From Candidatus Metaruminococcus caecorum (GTDB lineage: Bacteria > Bacillota > Clostridia > Oscillospirales > Ruminococcaceae): DNA of 64,000 nucleotides. The notes beneath the pieces are model-generated. The model ran no database searches. It worked only from the letters and a program-made list of their open reading frames with translations, and was not told where the DNA came from. The stretch lies in contig CAJFTY010000028.1 of NCBI GenBank assembly GCA_904420045.1, positions 24,915-88,914 of the forward strand. Direction: 5' to 3'. Both the position numbers and the translations under genes were made by a program. Every line of letters begins with the position of its first letter. Position 1 is the stretch's first letter. Shown in pieces: positions 7,759 to 29,843 of the stretch.

Positions 7759-7912
7759 TATTGTCTGATATGCAGATGCGCAGGCCCTGTGCAACGAAAG
7801 GCCGCGAACCATGTCAGGCGGGGAACCGAGCAGCATTAAGCGTTTTTTTTCGTGTGCCGCGGGTTCACCTGCGCGTTTGCATATGAGGCAGTAAATTGAA
7901 TCGATGCTCTAT
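7759..7912 (+). ncRNA. ffs: Signal recognition particle RNA (ends approximate)
   Basis: Diagnostic S-domain CCATGTCAGGCGGGGAACCGAGCAGCATTAAG ... GTGTGCCGCGGGTTCACC closed by a long helix TTGTCTGATATGCAGATGCGCAGG / CCTGCGCGTTTGCATATGAGGCAG; upstream of dnaX as in many Firmicutes. Confidence 0.88.
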
Positions 7913-12056: not shown

Positions 12057-12417
12057 GGGGGCGTAAAGGTTTCGACGGGGATTATGAACGGCCGCAAGCG
12101 AGTAGAGCGGGCGAAAGCTCTTAAAACGTCGCACTTAAAATTAAACGCAAACAAAAACACGAACGCTAATTTAGCATACGCTGCTTAGTTTAAGCAGCTC
12201 GTTCGCTTAAGAGGGACCACGGGCTTAAGCGGGCGTCTTATTTAGTGGTGAACATTTTCCGCCGACGCCTCTGAGCGGAAAAGGAACGAGAGGCTACCCA
12301 CCTCGCCAGCCTGTCAGCCGGCGGGCGGGATGGGGAATTTGAATAGACGGACTGCACTCGGAGAAAACGGTCGGAACTGATTTTCGGACGCGGGTTCGAC
12401 TCCCGCCGCCTCCACCA
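12057..12417 (+). ncRNA. ssrA: Transfer-messenger RNA
   Basis: 5' GGGGGCGTAAAGGTTTCGACGGGG pairs with 3' CGGGTTCGACTCCCGCCGCCTCCACCA (7-bp acceptor stem GGGGGCG/CGCCTCC); internal tag ORF ...ANKNTNANLAYAA stop. Confidence 0.97.
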
Positions 12418-27504: not shown

Positions 27505-28581
27505 ATGTTTGAAAAACTCAAGCTCACCGAACAACACTATGAAGAAGTGGGAGAAAAGCTCACCGACCCGGCGGTCATCAGCGACAACGACCAGTACAAA
27601 AACCTGATGAAGGAGTACAAAAAGCTCACCCCTGTGGTGGAAAAATACCGGGAGTACGCCGCCGCCCAGCAGGCGCTGGACGAAGCCAAGGAGCTTTTGG
27701 ACGCCGGCGGCCTGGAAAAAGACTTTAAAGAATTGGTCCAGGCGGAGCTGGAAGAAAACAAAGAAAAAGTGGAAACCTTGTCGGAGGAGCTCAAAATCCT
27801 GCTGCTTCCCACCGATCCCAACGACGACAAAAACGTCATTGTGGAAATCCGGGGCGGCGCCGGCGGGGAGGAGGCCGCTTTGTTCGCCTATTCCCTGTAC
27901 CGGATGTACTCCATGTACGCGGAATCCAAGGGCTGGAAAACTGAGATCGTCAACGCCAACGAAACCGAGCTGGGCGGCTTTAAAGAGGTCAGTTTTATGA
28001 TCGAAGGCGAAGGCGCCTATTCCCGCTTAAAGTTTGAAAGCGGCGTCCACCGGGTGCAACGGGTGCCCGAGACCGAGACCTCCGGGCGGATTCACACCTC
28101 CACCGTCACGGTGGCGGTGCTCCCCGAGGCGGAGGAAGTGGAATTCCAGATCAACCCTGCGGATTTGCAGATCGACACCTTCCGGGCCAGTGGAGCCGGC
28201 GGCCAGCACATCAACAAGACCGAATCCGCCATCCGGATCACCCATATCCCCACCGGCGTGGTGGTGGAATGCCAGGACGAGCGCAGCCAGTTTAAAAACA
28301 AGGACAAGGCGATGAAGATTCTGCGCTCCAAGCTATATGAAGAAAAGATGCGGGAGGAAAACGACAAGATCGCCGCTCAGCGGAAATCCCAGGTGGGCAC
28401 CGGCGACCGCAGCGAGCGCATCCGCACCTATAACTTCCCCCAGGGGCGGCTGACCGACCACCGGATCGGCCTGACCCTGTACCATTTGGAGGACAACTTA
28501 AACGGCAACATCGATGAGATCATCGACGCGCTGGTCACTGCCGACCAGGCCGCGAAACTGGCGGCACAAGCCGAAGAATAG
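27505..28581 (+). CDS. prfA: Peptide chain release factor 1
   Basis: [21 protein letters not shown] (GGQ motif). Confidence 0.97.
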
Positions 28582-28664
28582 GACTTTTGGGGTCCAAAAG
28601 TCCATTGGAAAAACGTCTGCTGGGTTAACAACCCAGCTGCCGCATAGCGGCACCTACGTTTTTC
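28582..28664. repeat. Structured multi-hairpin element, copy 1
   Basis: GACTTTTGG-GGT-CCAAAAGTC; ATTG; outer stem GAAAAACGT/ACGTTTTTC enclosing GCTGGGTT-AAC-AACCCAGC and TGCCGC-ATA-GCGGCA. Confidence 0.75.
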
Positions 28665-28687
28665 AGTTCCCATGCTTTGTGCAAATT

Positions 28688-28772
28688 AGACTTTTGGGGT
28701 CCAAAAGTCCATTAGAAAAATTGTTGTTGACACAATGTGTCAACTGCCGCAACAGCGGCATCACAATTTTTA
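28688..28772. repeat. Structured multi-hairpin element, copy 2
   Basis: GACTTTTGG-GGT-CCAAAAGTC; ATTAG; outer stem AAAAATTGT/ACAATTTTT enclosing GTTGACAC-AAT-GTGTCAAC and TGCCGC-AACA-GCGGCA. Confidence 0.75.
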
Positions 28773-28826: not shown

Positions 28827-29843
28827 ATGAAAACCATTCTCGCGCCGCCCACCGAGGAAAATCTCGCCCGGGCGGCTCAATTCATCAAACAGGGACTACT
28901 GGTAGGAATGCCCACTGAGACGGTGTACGGCCTTGCTGCCGATGCGGGAAACGAGCAAGCGGTCAAAGCGATCTTCACCGCCAAGGGCCGGCCCCAGGAC
29001 AATCCCCTGATCGTCCACATCAGCAGCCTTGACATGCTGGAAAAACTGGCCGAATCGGTGCCCGAAATCGCCCGAAGGCTGGCGGAGGCATTTTGGCCCG
29101 GGCCCCTGACGATGATTCTGCCGAAATCGCAACAGGTTTCGGACACCGTCACCGCCGGGATCGGCACAGTGGCGGTTCGCTTTCCTTCCCATCCGGTGGC
29201 ACAGCGGCTGATTGCGTTAAGCGGATGCCCCATTGCGGCGCCTTCCGCCAACCTGTCCGGAAGCCCCAGTCCCACCCGGGCGGAGCATGTGCTCCGGGAC
29301 ATGGTGGGAAGAATTCCCATGATCCTGGACGGGGGCGAATGCCAGGTGGGCCTTGAATCTACTGTTGTTTCCGTCTCGGAAGATCTGGTGCGGGTGCTGC
29401 GCCCAGGCGGCATCACGGTGGACGATCTTCTGACCGTAGCCAGTCGGGTGGAGGTGGACGGCGCAGTGCTCCATCAGCTGGAGGCCGGACGGGTTGCCGC
29501 CTCACCAGGCATGAAGTATAAACACTACGCCCCCAAGGCGCAGGTCACGATTGTAGAGGGAAACCTCTCCGCGTTTTACCAGTACGCCGCTGCTCACCAA
29601 GAGAGCGTCACCTATTGTATGGTATTCGACGGGGAGGAGCGAAACGCCCCGCTCCCCTGTATCACCTACGGTTCGAAGGACGATCAACGCGCCCAGGCCA
29701 GAGAGCTGTTTGACTGCCTGCGCCGCCTGGACGATTTGGGCGCTCAGACGGTGTTCGTCCGTTCCCCTTCCCGGGAGGGCGTGGGGCTGGCGGTTTACAA
29801 CCGCCTGCTGCGGGCGGCGGCCTTCCGGGTCGTCTCCCTTTGA
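28827..29843 (+). CDS. L-threonylcarbamoyladenylate synthase (Sua5/YwlC)
   Basis: GMPTETVYGLAADA, KGRPQDNPLIVH, SANLSGSPSPT, C-terminal Sua5 domain SPGMKYKHYAP. Confidence 0.94.
   Translation: MKTILAPPTEENLARAAQFIKQGLLVGMPTETVYGLAADAGNEQAVKAIFTAKGRPQDNPLIVHISSLDMLEKLAESVPEIARRLAEAFWPGPLTMILPKSQQVSDTVTAGIGTVAVRFPSHPVAQRLIALSGCPIAAPSANLSGSPSPTRAEHVLRDMVGRIPMILDGGECQVGLESTVVSVSEDLVRVLRPGGITVDDLLTVASRVEVDGAVLHQLEAGRVAASPGMKYKHYAPKAQVTIVEGNLSAFYQYAAAHQESVTYCMVFDGEERNAPLPCITYGSKDDQRAQARELFDCLRRLDDLGAQTVFVRSPSREGVGLAVYNRLLRAAAFRVVSL

Follow-up and report, generated by a model that had tools for sequence, protein, structure and literature searches.

Folded tandem units behind prfA belong to an uncatalogued and probably mobile hairpin repeat

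Two copies of a multi-hairpin element lie behind the release factor gene prfA in Candidatus Metaruminococcus caecorum. Are they a structured RNA, or do they belong to a DNA repeat? The window, by which we mean the whole 64,000-nucleotide stretch of DNA that was analysed, holds both copies in the intergenic region between prfA and a gene of the tsaC/sua5 family, and the two folded units are spaced 107 nt apart (Table 1). An earlier note had described this pair from its letters and had copy 1 begin with the final base of prfA's stop codon; sequence and coordinates are as it described. The stop TAG occupies 28579-28581, and its final G doubles as the first base of hairpin A in unit 1.

Each unit comprises a hairpin A of 9-10 bp, a spacer (CATTGG or CATTAG) and a three-way junction B. 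Within B, the outer stem measures 9 bp, the inner hairpin 8 bp and the TGCCGC hairpin 6 bp. The CATTGG-type spacer motif is common to several genera. A and B together measure ~85 nt, or ~107 nt with the linker. Both prfA copies adopt this fold with RNA and with DNA parameters and on either strand (folding z = -8.65 when the pair is folded as RNA, -11.4 and -9.6 when single units are folded as DNA). The fold proposed earlier holds for both copies, except that the A hairpin of copy 1 is one pair longer than described, at 10 instead of 9.

Table 1. Features of the prfA-tsaC region, in window coordinates.
Feature	Position	Strand	Details
prfA, peptide chain release factor 1, gene upstream of array	27505..28581	+	NCBIfam TIGR00019, E 5.9e-164
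Unit 1 hairpin A	28581..28603	+	GGACTTTTGG-GGT-CCAAAAGTCC, 10 bp, loop GGT
Unit 1 spacer, A to B	28604..28607	+	CATTGG-type motif, counting last C of A and first G of B
Unit 1 three-way junction B	28608..28664	+	
Unit 1 B outer stem			GAAAAACGT/ACGTTTTTC
Unit 1 B inner hairpin			GCTGGGTT-AAC-AACCCAGC
Unit 1 B further hairpin			TGCCGC-ATA-GCGGCA
Linker, unit 1 to unit 2	28665..28688	+	ATTA at its end, before next hairpin A
Unit 2 hairpin A	28689..28709	+	9 bp, loop GGT
Unit 2 three-way junction B	28716..28771	+	
Unit 2 B outer stem			AAAAATTGT/ACAATTTTT
Unit 2 B inner hairpin			GTTGACAC-AAT-GTGTCAAC
Unit 2 B further hairpin			TGCCGC-AACA-GCGGCA
tsaC/sua5 family gene, L-threonylcarbamoyladenylate synthase, downstream of array	28827..29843	+	TIGR00057, E 9.1e-63

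A dispersed repeat family and its range

The element is not confined to prfA. Searched with blastn, the assembly that contains the window gave 23 matches, and a covariance model (R1) returned 49, which fall into about 26 arrays of mostly two to three units each. All loci examined in this genome are intergenic, and the units inside arrays share one direct orientation. With about 49 copies, the units form a dispersed, tandemly duplicated repeat, in line with the REP/MITE-like alternative that the earlier note had allowed for. R1 was built from selected rows, with the structure set by hand, because MAFFT puts hairpin A of differing length out of register. It was run on the genome of the window and on 60 relatives, and found matches in 6 of these 61. 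A second model (R2), made from 77 units of six genomes, matched 17 of the 301 genomes sampled from the family, or 12 of 126 genera, a range that is a lower bound because the filters used for large samples drop weak matches, and that takes in the weakest single matches (G184, G209, G304 and G230), which were only partly checked by hand. Outside the family, the sample of the order gave a single extra match (G441) and that of the class gave 11 matches in G735, a single genome from a distant family; no further positive genome appeared in the sample of the phylum. The distribution across genera is patchy. The order of A, spacer, three-way junction and linker is kept from genus to genus, and the sequences differ strongly between genera.

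No family in Rfam 15 matches the prfA-tsaC element at the gathering threshold. The best match in a permissive search reached 15 bits, against thresholds of at least 37, and the other loci were likewise without a match. The earlier note did not recognise the element as a known riboswitch, T-box or terminator, and it does not belong to a catalogued one. Two RNAs in the same window are ordinary Rfam matches on the + strand, a tmRNA (12057-12417, 185 bits) and a bacterial small SRP RNA (7777-7878, 69.9 bits). In viral contigs, two sequence patterns did not find the element, and our literature search, mostly outside subscription papers, located no description of the repeat. The earlier note had set its proposal against copies scattered at random sites with no conserved structure, or a family already catalogued. 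The copies that we find are dispersed, but they keep their structure, occupy non-random sites and fit no catalogued family. The elements after prfA belong to a family of short DNA repeats that do not code for protein and had not been catalogued before; it is patchily distributed in gut Oscillospiraceae and their relatives.

Sites of insertion

Arrays of the window's species are placed with unusual exactness. Eighteen of 24 determinable arrays start -1 to +3 nt from the end of a same-strand stop codon (19 if the degenerate first hairpin at L074 is counted), with genes named by NCBIfam rather than by an ORF-only gene caller, which gave wrong neighbours at several loci. These stop-codon arrays are always sense to the upstream gene, in a single orientation. 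Their host genes (among them glgD, efp, atpE, groES, ftsX, hisE, aconitase, oadA, argS, jag, rplW and tpiA) have mixed housekeeping functions, and arrays are present even between atpE and atpF and between groES and groEL. A stop codon that starts with TA becomes TAG through the first G of the element; at groES, for example, GAA TAA becomes GAA TAG.

A congener (G001) offers a comparison of sites. We located 14 upstream regions in it, at 73-89% identity, and 13 of the 14 orthologous sites are empty, with an intergenic region that lacks the element; these include prfA-tsaC, groES-groEL, efp, aconitase to isocitrate dehydrogenase, and tpiA. Since most arrays are missing at the orthologous sites of the sister species, we regard them as lineage-specific insertions. 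The left junction is clear at the TA of stop codons, and the right junction is not alignable with the diverged congener. One site (L087) is filled in both species and has the hairpin GCGTGTTCGGGTCGAACACGC common to both. The rplW stop, which was outside the 14-region query, also carries a unit in both species (L090 and L095), with quite different arm sequences: either the same site was reused independently or the arms turn over very fast.

In other lineages the context shifts from the 3' ends of genes to promoters. Among Merdimmobilis hominis (G005), G189/G255 and G735, hairpin A is immediately preceded by a -10 hexamer in all 22 tested first units, 21 of them with a TG extension, and the match to the -35 reaches 3.32 of 6, compared with 2.47 for shuffled sequence; two composite or degenerate M. 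hominis loci, in which the first unit is nested or truncated, are omitted from these counts. Another genome (G244) has an extended -10 motif before A, as judged by eye. A rough ORF caller puts the downstream gene on the strand of the unit at 18 of 20 loci in M. hominis. At both checkable sites, phoU-phoP and nth, a G189 unit interrupts a native promoter that G255 retains intact. We considered whether the left-hand -10 is part of the element and rejected this for G189, because the congener sites hold native promoters there. Several arrays (L118, L144, L186 and L188) end in another extended -10, which, as read from the sequence, would restore a promoter to the downstream gene; others, such as L141, have no such terminal motif. 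The choice of insertion site falls on gene punctuation instead of random intergenic DNA.

Maintenance of the palindromes and rival explanations

The compensatory two-sided changes noted between the two prfA copies are real, and the same architecture is kept across diverged units as their sequence changes. In a first set of 10 homologous units, the covariation score was 0.459, compared with 0.176 in controls. With 77 units it was 0.692; shuffles scored 0.185, and sliding the pairing partners gave no more than 0.138. None of 500 shuffles reached the observed value. The larger alignment was made to follow the structure, so its score is biased upwards; the ten-unit set agrees with it. Two-sided changes occur in 31 of 32 pairs (652 cells).

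Such covariation might come from selection on an RNA. In RNA helices, however, G-U is a tolerated intermediate and A-C is not. Internal pairs of the units comprise 20 G-U, 18 A-C and 1484 Watson-Crick pairs, and tRNAs from the same loci gave 15 G-U and no A-C (Fisher p = 8e-4), in a comparison where the units are related to each other and the control consists of only seven tRNAs. Because G-U is as rare as A-C in the unit helices, complementarity appears to be maintained at the DNA level, and the lack of a G-U preference speaks against the idea that constraint on an RNA produced the covariation. The palindromes therefore appear to be kept as DNA and not as a conserved RNA gene. Either the folded DNA strand itself matters, or template switching during replication uses one arm to repair the other, as has been described for hairpins, where it creates and keeps perfect stems (PMC8794818). 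The earlier reading of the pattern as selection on structure rather than recent duplication is weakened accordingly: what we find is a dispersed tandem repeat with lineage-specific insertions and no G-U preference. Strong covariation, usually taken as proof of a functional RNA, can stem from mobile DNA palindromes, and the count of G-U versus A-C pairs is a simple discriminator for other candidate ncRNAs.

We consider it unlikely that the element is a structured cis-acting RNA (a 3'-UTR stabiliser, a regulator of translation or termination, or a 5' attenuator) or an ncRNA, with its fold under selection and useful copies spread by duplication. The very strong covariation that favours such an RNA is countered by the near parity of G-U and A-C. 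The strict single orientation at stop codons could reflect selection for RNA function, and the units of M. hominis are mostly sense to the downstream gene, but the context switches between lineages, from the 3' ends of genes to promoters, and the host genes are a mixed housekeeping set. REPs near stop codons are reported to influence translation, as summarised in PMC12306157; the empty congener sites and the lack of an Rfam match count against such an RNA. Still less credible is a set of intrinsic terminators, or of other hairpins that arise in place, are kept perfect by template switching and never move. Template switching is known to make and maintain perfect stems (PMC8794818), but acting in place it could not bring related units to sites where the congener has none. 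Terminator-like patterns do match within the array (4, compared with 0.9 expected). By form, however, the array does not look like a standard intrinsic terminator: it has no free U-tract, its T-run being the 3' arm of the B outer stem, and terminators fit poorly with arrays inside atpE-atpF and groES-groEL or with M. hominis units located behind promoters. We give this explanation the least credence of all.

A REP/BIME moved by a RAYT (a Y1 tyrosine transposase), or a PATE-like derivative of IS200/IS605, is very unlikely, even though the family resembles REPs in several respects. The Y1 transposase domain PF01797 is absent from 8 of 15 positive genomes (G000, G005, G189, G244, G156, G012, G184 and G304), and control genomes give matches. 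These eight include the window's own assembly (G000) and the near-complete G005 and G189; G005, the M. hominis genome, has 33 matches to the element yet no Y1 transposase. Some positive genomes do contain Y1 transposases, and, as with REPs, a hairpin directly follows a short conserved motif, the position is often 3' of genes, and the sequence is species-specific with its palindromes kept. BIME-style inverted pairs are not seen; the units are direct tandem repeats that contain a three-way junction. Reverse transcriptase (PF00078) is absent from six of seven positive genomes, G000 and G005 included. As separate observations, G255 has ten Y1 transposase genes of equal score, and G034 has many partial Y1 copies at contig ends, where an IS200-like element breaks the assembly.

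Mobility, related systems and unit variants

Quite probably, the prfA pair is a single array of a hairpin repeat that is mobile, non-coding and present in many copies. Our best reading is a REP/MITE-like hairpin element that is site-selective, expands in tandem and is of a kind previously undescribed. We infer mobility from the dispersal of the units, the empty sites and the nesting of one unit inside another (L120): at L120, L123 and L127 of M. hominis, a smaller hairpin unit lies within the three-way junction of another unit, and this nested composite recurs at several loci.

Both types of target carry an ATA-like sequence before the first base of the element. Insertion would be the work of a candidate enzyme or of a replication-linked process. 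The inserted form is probably a folded single strand of DNA, and its targets would be short ATA-like sequences that fall on stop codons or -10 boxes, so that a working signal is left and little harm is done. The simplest guess is a short target combined with strong selection for harmless places; it is possible that opened promoter DNA is targeted directly, which would cover one mode only. Arrays would then expand through tandem duplication, and the complementarity of the arms would be upheld as DNA by the needs of the mobilising machinery, by replication template switching or by both. More tentatively, we propose that a purely folded mobile element, a hairpin with a three-way junction, is carried as single-stranded DNA by a candidate recombinase that docks at host punctuation, at stop codons in one lineage and at -10 boxes in others, and that tandem insertions are harmless as the working signal persists. 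The mobilising enzyme, once found, would open a new hairpin-recognising recombination system.

The window array is probably transcribed together with prfA. In E. coli, REPs within 15 nt of a stop codon stall ribosomes, according to the summary in PMC12306157, so a similar damping of the upstream gene might be expected here by analogy. A transcribed array with its hairpin at the stop could slow termination, reduce translation of the upstream gene or protect against 3' exonucleases, although any such 3'-UTR effect may be a mere passenger effect.

In all likelihood the present element would act like a REP. REPs and BIMEs are also short, dispersed, non-coding palindromes, many per genome and often just 3' of genes, with species-specific sequence, conserved palindromes and a preceding motif that is GTAG in REPs and ATAG here. 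They differ in that single REPs alternate, whereas here a hairpin and a three-way junction stand in direct tandem, one set of lineages has them at -10 boxes, and the Y1 transposase is missing from more than half of the positive genomes. Integron attC sites are folded recombination sites directly behind stop codons, with species-specific sequence, conserved structure and tandem arrays in one orientation. All of this resembles the present arrays, which are set apart by their host genes, these being chromosomal housekeeping genes and not cassettes. MITEs, such as the TA-targeting types, are likewise small, non-coding, folded and dispersed, with insertion next to TA. Unlike TIR-type MITEs, the element has no terminal inverted repeats; its ends are GGACTTTT.. 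and ..ACCTTAGC-like, with internal hairpins only. Pneumococcal BOX, RUP and SPRITE are composite folded repeats of Firmicutes, modular and with tandem modules, and are regarded as non-autonomous parasites that influence the genes co-transcribed with them (PMC3049150). What distinguishes the present family, judged by the description of these repeats, is its exact placement at stop codons or -10 boxes, together with the covariation from unit to unit.

Units also vary in their hairpins. In the window's genome, a hairpin of type AAAGAACGTATGGAATACGTTCTT, extra or alternative, stands between A and B in some units (L072, L077 and L086), and at L080, L086, L092 and L093 junction B lacks one or both inner hairpins, which leaves a single long perfect palindrome. 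Near a unit at L097 of G012 (1816-1920, + strand) there is a match to STnc100, a gammaproteobacterial sRNA, at 37.1 bits against a gathering threshold of 47 (E 1.1e-4); this is probably a long hairpin. At L111 of M. hominis, two three-unit arrays with equal model scores lie 2.95 kb apart, which suggests a recent segment duplication.
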